A program made the translations under genes and the position numbers. From positions 10,151-31,910 of IMG/VR virus record IMGVR_UViG_3300030328_003230: a stretch of DNA of 21,760 nt; one strand, given 5' to 3'. Source of the stretch: a virus. Below the pieces are notes generated by a model. It had not been told where the DNA came from. It ran no database searches and saw only the letters and a list, made by a program, of their open reading frames with translations. Of the stretch, positions 123 to 8,168 are shown in pieces. Position 1 is the stretch's first letter. Each line of letters opens with the position of its first letter.

Positions 123-320
123 ATGAGTAATTCACCATTTTACAAAAAAGGTTCTGGATCCAAAATGGGTAAAGGATGTGCTGATACTGCGCAAGGATGT
201 ATTAGAAAAGACGGTAAAGGATTTAAAATATTAAATAATAAAAAAGGCGGAGTTTGGAGAAGTGGATATGCAACTAGAAAAGAAGCATTAGATCAATTAA
301 AAGCAATGCACGCTAATTAA
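123..320 (+). CDS. small basic protein, conserved unknown
   Basis: A 65-residue Lys/Gly-rich protein whose ATG lies two bases after the previous stop, preceded by an A-rich leader without a Shine-Dalgarno sequence. It begins with MSNSPFYKKGSGSK, has two Cys (in GKGCAD and QGCIRK), and then a segment that looks like a small beta-hairpin (GKGFKILNNKKGGVW) followed by a short helix (TRKEALDQLKAMHAN). I recall similar proteins in marine phage genomes but no assigned function. The basic charge and the strand-plus-helix shape would suit nucleic-acid binding, which is inference. The SNSPF start recurs in the protein at 827-1114. No membrane segment or signal peptide is visible. Confidence 0.75.
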   Translation: MSNSPFYKKGSGSKMGKGCADTAQGCIRKDGKGFKILNNKKGGVWRSGYATRKEALDQLKAMHAN

Positions 321-2147: not shown

Positions 2148-2552
2148 ATGGCACAATTCGTAAAATTTAACATAGTAGATAACGGTGATGCGGCTGGGCT
2201 TTTAGCTCAAGGTACACGTTTATTAAACTCTCAACATATAGGAGACGTTTCTTATGACGCTACAACTGGTGTTGTAACCGTAGTTCTTACTGCTCCTGCT
2301 GGAGGTAATTCTCAAGCTGCTGGTATAGCCGCAAGAGTACTTACATCAACAGTTAGAACAACTCAAGATGGTTCTGCTGGTATTCCAACAATTACTGATG
2401 GAGCTTCTGCACCTGATAAAGCTATTTATAAAGCAATGACTGCAAACCCTGGTGGTGTTGTAGCTACTGCTCAACTAGGTAGAGATCAAGCTGGTACTCC
2501 ATTACAAATGTATTGGACTACTTGGGCAGTTGCAACTGTAGACGACGTATAG
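2148..2552 (+). CDS. putative virion structural protein
   Basis: A 134-residue, acidic-to-neutral protein, quite unlike its basic neighbours. It is rich in Ala, Gly, Thr and Val with alternating beta-prone segments (SYDATTGVVTVVLTAPAGG, VLTSTVRTTQDG) and ends in ATVDDV. Codon use is more selective than in the small genes (for instance GCT, GGT and CGT appear), which suggests high expression. This profile resembles small decoration or minor capsid proteins of phages, but no family can be named. The ATG is the first in the frame and follows the CAA/AAT-rich leader. The stop (TAG 2550-2552) lies one base before the next ATG. It could equally be a secreted or tail-associated beta protein. Confidence 0.6.
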   Translation: MAQFVKFNIVDNGDAAGLLAQGTRLLNSQHIGDVSYDATTGVVTVVLTAPAGGNSQAAGIAARVLTSTVRTTQDGSAGIPTITDGASAPDKAIYKAMTANPGGVVATAQLGRDQAGTPLQMYWTTWAVATVDDV

Positions 2553-2710: not shown

Positions 2711-3019
2711 ATGGCTTTTAAAATTAAACCACCTTATATAATTGATAATACACCATTGTATCATCTAGATTTTGAAGAAGATGGTTTACTTGGTAGAGCT
2801 GATAGAAATGGAAGTATATTAATAAATAAAAATATAACAGATCCTAAGATAAAAGCAAGCGTTATAAAACATGAAAAAGTACATCTTGATGATATGAAAA
2901 AAGGTATACTTGATTATGATGATAAAAACGTTTACTGGAAAGGTAAAAAATACCCTCGTTCTTCATTTAACGAAGGAAATAAAAACCTACCTTGGGAAAA
3001 AAAAGCTTATAACAAATAA
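2711..3019 (+). CDS. minimal HExxH metallopeptidase-like protein
   Basis: A 102-residue protein with a zinc-metallopeptidase signature. HEKVH sits at residues 54-58, at the end of a helix (IKASVIKHEKVHLDDM). LPWEKKAYNK follows at 93-102, placing Glu96 where gluzincin-type enzymes often carry the third zinc ligand in an NPxExxAY-like motif. The region between (DYDDKNVYWKGKKYPRSS) is probably a beta-hairpin. The fold would be a very small peptidase domain with no signal peptide or membrane segment. Possible roles are processing of virion proteins, cell-wall access or attack on a host protein; none is shown. The gene starts one base after the previous stop. The motif is clear, but activity is inferred. 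Confidence 0.6.
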   Translation: MAFKIKPPYIIDNTPLYHLDFEEDGLLGRADRNGSILINKNITDPKIKASVIKHEKVHLDDMKKGILDYDDKNVYWKGKKYPRSSFNEGNKNLPWEKKAYNK

Positions 3020-3029
3020 AATAATTAAA

Positions 3030-3476
3030 ATGGGATACGGTAATAAATCAGTAAGTGGAGTACATCCAATACTAAAACATATGAATAAATTAGGAGGTAA
3101 TCCTGAAATTAAAGATATGCCAATAAAACACGATATGAAGCCTTTAGGTAGAGGTGGAAAATTAGGTACAGCTGAATATGGTGATAAAGGAATGCCAGCA
3201 TATGGTCATGGAAAAGACAAAGGTATGCCAATGCATAAAGGCTATCCTCATAAAAGAGCTACATTTGAAGGTAAAGGAAGAGGAGGTCAAAATATATATG
3301 TTGATTCTTCTGGTAATGTTGCAGAGGGAACAAAGAAAAAATCACCACTAAAAGTTAAAGGTGATACGGGTCACGCTAGAACAGGTAAAAAAAGTAAAAG
3401 AAGCTCAGTTGATAAAGGTAAGTATATTGAACACACTGATTCAATGGGTAAAAAAGCTTATACACTTAAAAAATAA
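3030..3476 (+). CDS. basic Gly/His/Lys-rich protein, unknown
   Basis: A protein of 148 residues if translation starts at ATG 3030, which follows an A-rich leader and gives the N-terminus MGYGNKSVSGVHPILKHMNK. The open frame extends upstream to 2910, but that part lies entirely in another frame of the metallopeptidase gene and reads as a low-complexity shadow, so the later start is preferred. The protein is rich in Gly, His, Lys and Met, with short repeats such as DKGMPAYGHGKDKGMPMHKG. It is probably flexible and has no Cys. It contains KSPLKVK near residue 106, shared with the protein at 1394-2095. The stop directly abuts the holin start at 3477. The function is unknown; it may be a packaged or structural basic protein. 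Confidence 0.7.
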   Translation: MGYGNKSVSGVHPILKHMNKLGGNPEIKDMPIKHDMKPLGRGGKLGTAEYGDKGMPAYGHGKDKGMPMHKGYPHKRATFEGKGRGGQNIYVDSSGNVAEGTKKKSPLKVKGDTGHARTGKKSKRSSVDKGKYIEHTDSMGKKAYTLKK

Positions 3477-3857
3477 ATGTTTAAATTATTACTAAGCCTT
3501 TTAGGCAAAGGCAGTGGAAATAAATCTGTTGCCGGCGGTTTGGCTTGGGAAATAAGAGAAGCAATAAAAGGTAAGGAATTAGATCCTGAAAAATTAATAG
3601 AATTACAGACTAAGATAAATGCAGTAGAAGCTCAGCATAGAACATTGTTTGTTGCTGGATGGAGACCATTTATTGGGTGGATATGCGGCGTAGCACTAGC
3701 ATATAATTTTGTTGTAAGAGACTTGATTATATGGTTAACTCCTACTTTCGAAACTCCACCCGCCTTACAAATGGATCATTTAATGACAGTACTATTAGGT
3801 ATGTTAGGATTAGGTGGTCTTAGAACTTATGAAAAAATTAAAGATAAAGTAAAATAA
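3477..3857 (+). CDS. 3-TM holin (GTA_holin_3TM type)
   Basis: A 126-residue membrane protein. An amphipathic N-terminal stretch is followed by a helical part (about residues 20-58, with ELDPEKLIELQTKINAVEAQH), and then by hydrophobic segments at about 60-78 (AGWRPFIGWICGVALAYNFV), 80-90 and 102-115 (LMTVLLGMLGLGGL). The motifs GWRPFIGW and GLGGLRTYEK are hallmarks of the 3-TM holin family first described for gene transfer agents (Pfam PF11351 from memory). Holins of this kind make the inner-membrane lesion that releases virions. The gene abuts the stop of the upstream gene without a gap. No endolysin is visible in the window, so its lytic partner must lie elsewhere. Confidence 0.85.
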   Translation: MFKLLLSLLGKGSGNKSVAGGLAWEIREAIKGKELDPEKLIELQTKINAVEAQHRTLFVAGWRPFIGWICGVALAYNFVVRDLIIWLTPTFETPPALQMDHLMTVLLGMLGLGGLRTYEKIKDKVK

Positions 3858-5732: not shown

Positions 5733-5937
5733 AGTAGCTAAAGAAGCAATAGTTGATTCTGATGATGATATTTCTGCAGACAGATTAAAAAATGCAGCTG
5801 CTACAAAAAAATTAGCTATATTTGATGCTTTTGAAATACTTAACCGTATAGAAGAAGAAGAAAGTATGTTAAAAGAAACTAGCAAAAAAGATAAAGGAGC
5901 AAGTTTTAAAGGTTTTGCAGAAAATAGATCTAAATAA
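5665..5937 (+). CDS. putative terminase small subunit
   Basis: A 90-residue helical protein directly upstream of the large terminase, the usual place for the small subunit that recognises phage DNA. Helices are likely at residues 6-28 (KESIIQAGQKAVEELIKVAK) and 38-66 (SADRLKNAAATKKLAIFDAF, then EILNRIEEEE), with a flexible basic tail. The ADRLKNAAATKKLAIFDAFEIL pattern is one I recall upstream of TerL in marine phages. No clear helix-turn-helix can be assigned by eye, so the terminase role is mostly positional. The 5' 68 bases lie inside the GroES-like gene in another frame, and no later start codon would keep the conserved helix. The stop overlaps the TerL ATG by one base (TAATG). Confidence 0.55.
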   Translation: MNTKKTKESIIQAGQKAVEELIKVAKEAIVDSDDDISADRLKNAAATKKLAIFDAFEILNRIEEEESMLKETSKKDKGASFKGFAENRSK

Positions 5938-8168
5938 TGTATAAACAAACTCTTTATAAAATTTTACCTGATCATATTAAATCTAAAATATTAAAAAGAA
6001 ATAATAGATATAAAAAATGGGAAACTGGTTATAATGAAGAACACGATGTTGTTATTATTAGTAAAACTGGTAAAATTGGCGAAATATATGAAATACAAGG
6101 TCTTAAAGTTGCACTTCCATTAGAAGAAAATACATATAAAAGATCAGATAAAAAAGAAGAACAATATTGGGAGGTAAAAGAATATCCTAAACAATTAGAT
6201 AAAATTAAAACAGTATTTGATTGGAATAATTATCCTGCTCAATTTAAAGATAAATGGTATGATTATATTGATGAAGAATTTAAAAGGCGTGAACAAGGCT
6301 TTTGGTTTTATAACAAAGGTATTCCTAGTTATATTACTGGTTCTCATTATATGTACTTGCAGTGGACCAAGATTGATGTTGGGCACCCAGAGTTCAGGGA
6401 ATCTAACAGAATTTTCTTCATATTTTGGGAAGCCTGCAAACTTGATTCTCGATCCTATGGACTGTGTTATCTTAAGAACAGGAGATCCGGTTTTTCTTTC
6501 ATGGCATCTTCAGAGCTTGTACACCAGGCCACTATATCCTCCGATTCACGATATGGTATACTTTCGAAAACTGGAGCTGATGCGAAGAAGATGTTTACCG
6601 ATAAGGTGGTACCAATCTCCGTTAATTATCCATTCTTTTTCAAACCGATCCAGGACGGTATGGACAGGCCCAAAACAGAACTCGCCTATCGTGTACCCGC
6701 GTCCAAACTTACCCGTCGTAAAATCGATCAGAATCAACGTCCCGAGGAACTCGTCGGGCTTGACACGACCATCGACTGGAAGAACACCGGCGACAACTCG
6801 TACGATGGGGAGAAACTCAAGCTTCTCGCCCATGATGAATCGGGCAAGTGGGAGAGGCCGGACAACATCCTCAATAACTGGAGGGTCACGAAAACAACAT
6901 TAAGATTAGGTAGTAGAATAATAGGTAGATGTATGATGGGATCAACATCTAACTCATTAGATAAAGGAGGTGGTAATTTTAAAAAATTATATGAAGCATC
7001 AGATGTTACAAAAAGAAACAGGAACGGACAGACTAATTCAGGACTATATAGTTTGTTTATACCTATGGAGTGGAATTACGAAGGATACATCGATACTTAT
7101 GGATTTCCTGTATTCGAAACTCCGAAAAAAGCGGTCAGAGGTATTGATGGCGGACAGATTAAAATCGGCGTCATCTCACACTGGGAAAATGAAGTAGAAG
7201 GTTTAAAAAATGACCAAGATGGTTTAAATGAATTTTATCGTCAATTTCCAAGAACTGAAAAACATGCTTTTAGAGATGAGGCAAAACAATCTTTATTTAA
7301 TCTAACTAAGATTTATGAACAAATAGATTATAATGAAGATTTAAGAAATACAAATATACTTACTCAAGGAAGTTTTCAATGGGAAAACGGTACAAAAGAC
7401 ACTAGAGTAATATTTGTTCCAAATAATAATGGTAGGTTTTTGGTATCATGGATACCACCTGCTCATTTACAAAATAAATATATAATTAAAAATGGTATTA
7501 GGTATCCTGGAAATGATCATACTGGTGCTTTTGGCTGTGATAGTTATGATATCTCTGGCACAGTAGACGGTAGAGGTTCTAAAGGAGCTTTGCATGGTTT
7601 AACTAAGTTTTCTATGGAGGATGTTCCTCCTAATTGTTTTTTTTTAGAATATATAGCTAGACCTCAAACTGCTGAAATATTTTTTGAAGATGTTTTAATG
7701 GCTATTGTTTTTTATGGTATGCCACTTCTTGCAGAAAATAACAAACCAAGATTATTATATTATTTAAAACGAAGAGGTTACAGAGGTTATTCTATGAATA
7801 GACCTGATAAAGTTTATAATAAATTATCAATAACCGAGAGAGAAATAGGTGGAATACCTAATACAAGCGAAGATATTAAACAAGCTCATGCAGCAGCAAT
7901 AGAAGATTATATTGAAAATTTTGTAGGATTAATACATGAAGGATATGGAGACATGTATTTTCAACAAACTTTAGATGATTGGGCTAAGTTTAATATAAAT
8001 AATAGAACTAAACATGATGCATCAATAAGCTCTGGATTAGCTATTATGGCTTGTAATAAAAATAGATATACGCCACATGCTAAAAGAACATTATCAACGG
8101 TTCCTTTAAAATTTAAATCGTATAATAATGATGGATACATTTCAAAAATAATCAAAATAAATGATTAA
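5937..8168 (+). CDS. terL: terminase large subunit (TerL)
   Basis: A 743-residue DNA-packaging motor. The ATPase domain has a degenerate Walker A (KNRRSGFSF, residues 180-188), as in other phage terminases, Walker B plus catalytic Glu (LKLLAHDE, 294-301) and a coupling motif (GSTSN, 335-339). The C-terminal RNase H-like nuclease shows GCDSYD (533-538), LLAENN (598-602) and HDASISSG (693-700), which carry the likely metal-binding acidic residues. It cuts concatemeric DNA and pumps it through the portal encoded next, whose start overlaps by eight bases. The odd feature is composition: bases about 6355-6895 and 7015-7197 have much higher G+C and use CGN and CTC codons instead of AGA and TTA, while the frame stays open. 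Confidence 0.92.
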   Translation: MYKQTLYKILPDHIKSKILKRNNRYKKWETGYNEEHDVVIISKTGKIGEIYEIQGLKVALPLEENTYKRSDKKEEQYWEVKEYPKQLDKIKTVFDWNNYPAQFKDKWYDYIDEEFKRREQGFWFYNKGIPSYITGSHYMYLQWTKIDVGHPEFRESNRIFFIFWEACKLDSRSYGLCYLKNRRSGFSFMASSELVHQATISSDSRYGILSKTGADAKKMFTDKVVPISVNYPFFFKPIQDGMDRPKTELAYRVPASKLTRRKIDQNQRPEELVGLDTTIDWKNTGDNSYDGEKLKLLAHDESGKWERPDNILNNWRVTKTTLRLGSRIIGRCMMGSTSNSLDKGGGNFKKLYEASDVTKRNRNGQTNSGLYSLFIPMEWNYEGYIDTYGFPVFETPKKAVRGIDGGQIKIGVISHWENEVEGLKNDQDGLNEFYRQFPRTEKHAFRDEAKQSLFNLTKIYEQIDYNEDLRNTNILTQGSFQWENGTKDTRVIFVPNNNGRFLVSWIPPAHLQNKYIIKNGIRYPGNDHTGAFGCDSYDISGTVDGRGSKGALHGLTKFSMEDVPPNCFFLEYIARPQTAEIFFEDVLMAIVFYGMPLLAENNKPRLLYYLKRRGYRGYSMNRPDKVYNKLSITEREIGGIPNTSEDIKQAHAAAIEDYIENFVGLIHEGYGDMYFQQTLDDWAKFNINNRTKHDASISSGLAIMACNKNRYTPHAKRTLSTVPLKFKSYNNDGYISKIIKIND
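6355..6895 (+). other. high-G+C island within the TerL ATPase domain
   Basis: Bases 6721-6780 and 6781-6840 contain 32 and 31 G+C per 60, against 18 of 60 at 7861-7920 in the same gene. Codons change from AGA/TTA to CGT, CGA, CTC, CTT, GTC and ACC. The edges are fairly abrupt, and the encoded protein remains a normal terminase from Walker A through Walker B. Possible causes are recombination with a G+C-richer relative or a chimeric assembly. Confidence 0.8.
7015..7197 (+). other. second, smaller G+C-richer island in terL
   Basis: After about 120 AT-rich bases that include the coupling motif GSTSN, composition rises again. Stretches such as TACATCGATACTTATGG and AAAATCGGCGTCATCTC use codons that are rare elsewhere in the gene. 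Past about 7197 the gene returns to AT-rich codons. The alternation suggests mosaic exchange with more than one crossover. Confidence 0.6.

Follow-up and report, generated by a model that had tools for sequence, protein, structure and literature searches.

IrrE/PprI of Deinococcus (peptidase family M78) has an HExxH helix followed by a helix that bears a glutamate, in chains of 240 residues or more that carry further domains. The minigluzincins abylysin, jannalysin, and selecase are archaeal single-domain chains of about 105-112 residues. ArdC and the zincin MPTase domains of polyvalent proteins also have an HExxH helix, a second helix with a glutamate, and a variable insert between the two, and they are parts of large multidomain proteins. 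SprT/Spartan and Wss1 have a small metallopeptidase core. The ArdC paper defines gluzincins by HExxH together with (E,H)xx(A,F,T,S,G) (PMC7213743). The metal-binding glutamate is described as E113 in IrrE (PMC5552922), E229 in ArdC (PMC7213743), and E983 in VgrG2b (PMC6899460), and the third ligand of Spartan as a histidine (PMC7213743).

The window analyzed here is a stretch of 21,760 nucleotides, which corresponds to bases 10151-31910 of a metagenomic virus record 31,910 bases long. An open reading frame with an ATG start (positions 2711-3019, + strand) encodes a protein of 102 residues that is, judging from conservation and modeling, very likely a single-domain minimal gluzincin-type peptidase. 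It resembles IrrE in having a predicted HExxH helix and a glutamate at the matching place on the following helix, but it is much shorter. It is comparable in size to the minigluzincins, with which its models align at Z 2.8-4.6, but no sequence match to them was found, and a leader shared with neighboring proteins is a feature of the phage family. Unlike ArdC and the polyvalent-protein domains, it stands alone. It also resembles SprT/Spartan and Wss1 in its core (Z 3.7-4.8), but the residue at the proposed third ligand position is Glu in 47 of 47 members.

The candidate active site and predicted fold

The motif HEKVH (His54, Glu55, and His58; positions 2870-2884, +) lies on a predicted helix spanning residues 45-63. 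Glu96, the proposed third zinc ligand, is 38 residues past His58 within PWEKKA (residues 94-99; positions 2990-3007, +), where the last predicted helix starts. Both elements had been singled out in an initial annotation made from the letters alone, and both hold up: the motif is conserved, and Glu96 does not vary in either of two alignments (47 and 12 sequences). In the predicted model, E96-K-K-A99 has the ExxA form covered by the (E,H)xx(A,F,T,S,G) pattern. Three strands (residues 67-69, 73-76, and 79-82; positions 2909-2956, +) with a conserved W-x-G lie between the two active-site helices. When the residues of the protein were shuffled 100,000 times, HExxH appeared by chance in 0.28% of the shuffles. 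Synonymous codon differences exceed non-synonymous ones in comparisons with four relatives (15/6, 16/10, 14/11, and 24/8), which supports that the reading frame is coding.

The AlphaFold model built from the 47-sequence alignment (pLDDT 89.0, pTM 0.76) contains strands 16-19, 28-30, and 36-39, helix 45-63, the three strands described above, and helix 94-101. A second model, of another member and based on 30 sequences (pLDDT 85.8, pTM 0.74), has the same topology; in both, HExxH sits within a single helix and the Glu belongs to the final one. In structural alignments of both models with the PDB, the leading rows are nearly all metallopeptidases. IrrE/PprI ranks at the top for both (Z 5.8, rmsd 3.8 over 77 residues; Z 6.3, rmsd 3.8 over 82 residues), followed by SPRTN, abylysin, Wss1, and selecase, with ArdC and VgrG2b found with the first model only. 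Z stays under 8 for all matches, and Foldseek E values are below 0.001 only against predicted viral proteins. The moderate Z values alone prove little, and the weight lies on the position of the glutamate in the last predicted helix. In the first model, the alignments end with residue 102 on IrrE 119, ArdC 235, and VgrG2b 989; six residues back, Glu96 falls on IrrE E113, ArdC E229, and VgrG2b E983, a placement by end offset that assumes the last six or seven residues to be gap-free. In the second model, residue 101 is on IrrE 120, and Glu94 again falls on IrrE 113. SPRTN does not fit, as the simple end offset gives 134-135, off its third ligand, which we take to be His130.

Structure prediction had been proposed in the initial annotation as a check, and a fold with the two His far from Glu96 did not appear, judged by helix placement and alignment ends. 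The proposal of a gluzincin with His54, His58, and Glu96 in 102 residues is therefore well supported by conservation, two predicted folds, and the ends of the structural alignments. We suggest that the metal would be held by His54 and His58, from one helix, together with Glu96 from the last, and that Glu55 would activate water, in an IrrE-like or minigluzincin-like core with the W-x-G strands inserted between the active-site helices. We infer from this arrangement that the protein binds metal and acts as a peptidase.

Conservation and distribution of the family

A scan of viral contigs with the single protein gave 260 pattern matches, 238 of which were relatives; 80 of these were kept and, with the window, form a set of 81 sequences. 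A profile-guided scan of viral contigs gave at least 599 matches, including at least 583 relatives. HExxH is present in all 81 sequences and in 131 of 133 distinct cores of the larger set, the other two being fragments that miss that part. Relatives without the motif, which the initial annotation had named as evidence against its reading, were thus not encountered. Nearly all members are small: of the 81 distinct relatives, a single one exceeds 125 residues, with a length of 254. This sole long form (L059:6001-6762) consists of the peptidase and about 150 extra residues, many of them basic.

Across the 47 chosen sequences, the positions without variation are P15, G28, G34, I36, H54, E55, H58, G65, L67, Y69, V74, W76, G78, R83, E88, G89, L93, W95, and E96. 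The alignment of 12 diverse sequences takes in four proteins of isolated phages (Methylophilales phage Melnitz, Xanthomonas phage XacN1, Ochrobactrum phage OC, and Sinorhizobium phage phiM12) at 28-30% identity. Here H54, E55, H58, G78, P94, W95, E96, and A99 are invariant, which is the residue set that an active site would leave. In a divergent copy in locus L294, Tyr replaces Trp95, and the Glu is retained. Among genome contigs, 94 stretches matched a pattern and seven encoded a relative, all on metagenome-assembled-genome contigs; we tentatively read these seven as binned viral contigs and not as cellular in origin.

The closest family profiles are PHROG 16532 and PHROG 10499, both of unknown function, which are each matched by 47 of 47 members at E up to 0.1 (best 5e-11 and 3e-10, respectively). 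Their isolated-phage members carry the same HExxH and PWExxA, but the profiles are 138-149 positions long, and the members examined come from larger phage genomes. PHROG 87 (metallo-protease) is matched by 27 of 47 members at E up to 0.1 (best 7.5e-4). The curated M78 model, PF06114, is matched by two of the 47 (best E 0.19), so that the family does not classify as M78 by sequence. DUF6782 (PF20573) is matched by 25 of 47 at E up to 0.5; the L031 protein, which gave the lowest E seen (3e-4), scores 20.6 bits, below the curated cut-off of 27. No curated model was seen to reach its cut-off for the family in the Pfam and NCBIfam checks, and PDB sequence searches with the peptidase found no metallopeptidase. 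The peptidase, very probably a minimal gluzincin, is a new family inside a known enzyme kind.

The terminase large subunit of the window (positions 5937-8168, +), which defines the clade in terminase comparisons, shares 64% identity with its counterpart in MW202828 (Manatee Spring), 45% with those of the Flavobacterium phages elemo, and 31-42% with those of Maribacter, Cellulophaga, and Tenacibaculum phages. These identities make the window phage, a marine one, akin to podoviruses of Flavobacteriia, and its host probably belongs to the Flavobacteriia. Loci were counted if they extended 5 kb or more beyond the terminase on its upstream side (33 of the 80 sister-set loci and 20 of the 78 close-set loci, the repeat loci L108 and L136 being left out of the close-relative count). 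Scored by six-frame profile hits, the peptidase is present in 17 of 20 close relatives and in 0 of 33 members of the MW202828-like sister clade. The whole records of MW202828 and elemoE_6-9C gave no peptidase match at E up to 1, in a search run without a positive control alongside. No small HExxH protein that could substitute for it (plus strand, 60-260 residues) was found in the three close loci lacking the peptidase or in the 33 sister-clade loci. The peptidase is therefore a clade-specific accessory gene.

Gene neighborhood and a shared N-terminal leader

The common gene order was drawn from 96 spanning loci, a biased set because most were fetched via the peptidase. It runs GroEL, GroES, a 148-residue gene, a 74-residue gene, a 50-residue hydrophobic protein, sometimes an M15 endolysin, DUF6321, a 134-residue gene, a 51-residue CGC gene, the peptidase, often a holin, two small genes, a GroES-like gene, a 90-residue gene, and the terminase. 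The initial annotation placed the peptidase among basic genes of a virion module. The first part is borne out in the window by five neighbors with pI 9.9-11.1 (positions 123-320, 827-1114, 1394-2095, 2554-2709, and 3030-3476). The second is only partly right: chaperonin, lysis, small basic, and packaging genes together make up a mixed block. On the + strand, the basic neighbors include a DUF6321 protein with an NSPF tag (827-1114, assigned by Pfam), a Lys-rich protein of 233 residues and pI 10.7 with a MAFK leader and a KSPL tag (1394-2095), the 51-residue protein (2554-2709), and a 148-residue protein with a KSPL tag (3030-3476). They are followed by a holin (3477-3857, +; GTA_holin_3TM in Pfam, PHROG 3427). 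Cellulophaga phage phi38:1 encodes two small basic proteins in the corresponding block, before its terminase, that are annotated as structural by similarity to phi18:1; this gives a precedent for a virion location of such proteins.

Neighbor counts were made over 81 loci, the window itself excluded, as an overlap rule of the ORF caller had dropped its peptidase gene. The holin family lies within a few genes downstream of the peptidase in 72 of the 81 loci and directly next to it in 28, and in locus L134 the reading frames of the two overlap. Two members of the holin cluster were checked as PHROG 3427 holins, with a Pfam score below the cut-off for one and absent for the other; the holin model of the 96-locus survey missed the window's own holin, which was identified by Pfam and PHROG. 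The 51-residue GLGD...CGC...FPY protein adjoins the peptidase upstream in 53 of 81 loci. An exclusive partnership between the two was considered and rejected, as the CGC gene also occurs in MW202828 and in L261, both without the peptidase. Relatives of the 51-residue protein are found in Nonlabens and Microcystis phages.

The peptidase begins with MAFKIKPP (positions 2711-2734, +), and confidence is lowest over the first ten residues in both models (66 and 60). M1, A2, F3, and K4 are at least 90% conserved in the 47-sequence alignment. This start is common to unrelated neighbors. In peptidase loci, M[AP]FK[LMIV] opens 93 of 1217 distinct forward reading frames upstream of the terminase (peptidases included), compared with 0 of 767 upstream frames in loci without the peptidase and 0 of 102 and 0 of 341 downstream; the shuffle expectation is 0.06 at most on average. 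Compared after removal of 20 residues, the non-peptidase leader proteins are 37 in 21 families, all on the + strand (an initial tally of 38 in 22 included L294:1657, which is a divergent peptidase). The DUF6321 proteins start with MAFK (MAFKLP) in two relatives and differently elsewhere. Non-peptidase leader proteins occur in 42 of 186 peptidase loci and in 0 of 140 loci without the peptidase. Some contigs enter the 186 more than once, having been fetched again, and parts of the window's own record are among them; most of the sampled loci that lack the peptidase come from another clade or stop short of the block. As the leader and the peptidase share one clade, and no more than 42 of the 186 loci have another MAFK protein, the link between them may be ancestry. 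Codon 2 of the leader varies and the codons TTT and AAA are nearly fixed, so that a nucleotide-level cause is possible.

A tag of the form [KNSRGM]SP[LFM] also recurs in unrelated small basic proteins (window positions 123-320, 827-1114, 1394-2095, and 3030-3476), about 4 to 6 fold over shuffles. It is found in 137 of 1217 upstream frames of peptidase loci (21.6 in shuffles) and in 55 of 767 upstream frames of loci without the peptidase (14.5 in shuffles), and is thus not tied to the peptidase. A narrow combined literature search that included MAFK found nothing; the search is a weak one, and we make no claim that the leader is unpublished. We consider it somewhat short of an even chance that the leader is a sorting tag, and a more tentative possibility that the proteins bearing it are virion cargo.

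Possible roles of the peptidase

T4 internal proteins bear a capsid targeting sequence, and the leader described here is similar in being a short N-terminal label on several unrelated proteins, a comparison by description and not by sequence. We tentatively prefer, at a little under even probability, a leader-tagged, co-delivered late zinc peptidase. The flexible leader (MAFKhK, then Pro) would be an address label that takes all its bearers to one place, most simply the virion interior, and the peptidase would cleave a particular protein in the virion or after ejection; leader function, location, and substrate are inferred here from gene content and sequence. There are related cases in the literature: the crassvirus head and tail are described as storing cargo proteins (PMC10172136), packaged phage polyvalent proteins as having zincin domains with predicted processing or effector roles (PMC5512222), and the ejected N4 RNA polymerase as containing an HExxH domain (PMC12633501).

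The top structural match suggests that the protein may act during infection as a cytosolic effector with a single host or phage target, for example a repressor bound to DNA or a defense protein, which it would cleave as IrrE cleaves DdrO. This reading would also suit an accessory gene, as effectors often are, and a related phage protein is annotated as an ImmA/IrrE metallopeptidase. We regard it as unlikely, though worth keeping in mind, since the gene lies beside holin, endolysin, and packaging genes and not among early genes, 102 residues leave no room for a DNA-binding or sensor domain, and no convincing PADLOC or NCBIfam match was found. The position next to the holin could instead point to a lysis helper that is released through it and breaks down a protein of the periplasm or envelope as infection ends. 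The holin counts given above favor this role, as does the M15 endolysin, which lies just upstream of the peptidase where present. VgrG2b, which acts in the periplasm and whose gluzincin domain is described as toxic there (PMC6899460), is among the fold matches, but this match is weak (Z 3.7) and missing from the list of the second model. The sister clade does without the peptidase, and a cell-wall role appears taken, by an M15 endolysin that accompanies the peptidase in 28 of 78 loci and, in near relatives, is encoded at another place in the record. On balance we find a lysis helper doubtful.

In the course of assembly, the peptidase might also take off the MAFKhK-SP leader common to the small basic proteins, or cut at that leader. 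In favor of this, non-peptidase leader proteins were seen only in peptidase loci, and polyvalent-protein zincin domains are predicted to process packaged proteins (PMC5512222). The shared leader is in this respect a modest and indirect hint toward the earlier idea that the Lys-rich neighbors are processed; the attack on a host protein, also raised in the initial annotation, may apply instead. However, 144 of the 186 peptidase loci lack another MAFK protein in the stretch fetched, the comparison loci are mostly of another clade or end before the block, and SP tags occur without the peptidase, so that we rate leader processing as slightly more doubtful still. The initial annotation also raised maturation of the head. 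A prohead protease of the whole lineage could be a small protein of the late block, and no other protease was recognized among the ten head-side proteins scanned. The peptidase is nevertheless missing from all 33 sister-clade loci, from 3 of the 20 close ones, and from the two whole records, all of which keep the terminase, portal, and capsid genes. This absence from relatives with the same terminase-portal-capsid block argues against a shared head-maturation enzyme and makes this role very improbable. We give the least credence to a chance motif in a non-enzymatic basic protein. The protein is indeed short and basic, and no curated family reached its cut-off in the checks made, but the catalytic residues are strictly conserved down to 28% identity and the predicted fold is metallopeptidase-like.

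The co-delivered late peptidase thus remains our preferred reading. A bolder version, which we consider speculative, is that MAFKhK with SPL/SPF or PPY serves as a portable address label, carried by the peptidase and by no fewer than 21 unrelated small proteins; the peptidase would be either the processor of the label, a zinc counterpart of the T4 pair of capsid targeting and prohead protease, or a packaged peptidase ejected with the DNA. Environmental phages thereby gain an abundant family of probable gluzincins of very small size. Its predicted active site is well defined, so that structural and enzymatic studies would have a good target in it. From the leader on unrelated proteins comes a concrete hypothesis for the sorting of small late phage proteins, and if the peptidase acts on the leader proteins or is ejected, it would provide a handle on a gene block with many proteins that lack an assigned function.

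We also considered the peptidase as the endolysin and rejected this for near relatives, as the records of L001 and L002 have an M15_3 gene elsewhere. M15_3 is found in 8 of 13 records searched, the others being the window's own 31.9-kb fragment record, L069, L138, L271, and L293. Between chaperonin and peptidase, no M15 gene is present in 50 of 78 distinct loci, and the window record has none. Amidase_3 and phage lysozyme profiles found nothing in 12 virus records, and the GH108 profile was silent on records and controls alike and is uninformative.

Several other genes of the block were recorded. The 134-residue acidic protein (window positions 2148-2549), commonly encoded two genes upstream of the peptidase, belongs to a family with an ALTANPGGV-like segment and had no match in isolated phages. 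The 204-residue protein at 5118-5732 matches a PHROG annotated as co-chaperonin GroES, and its family lies near the terminase in 79 of 81 loci; a GroEL/GroES pair is also present upstream in the window's record. In L154 (9630-10270), two reading frames repeat the stretch EALVSPFNMDDLSGDGKITQKDVLIG, which resembles an EF-hand or dockerin type loop, and the second copy has undetermined bases directly before the window start, which may reflect a gap in the assembly.
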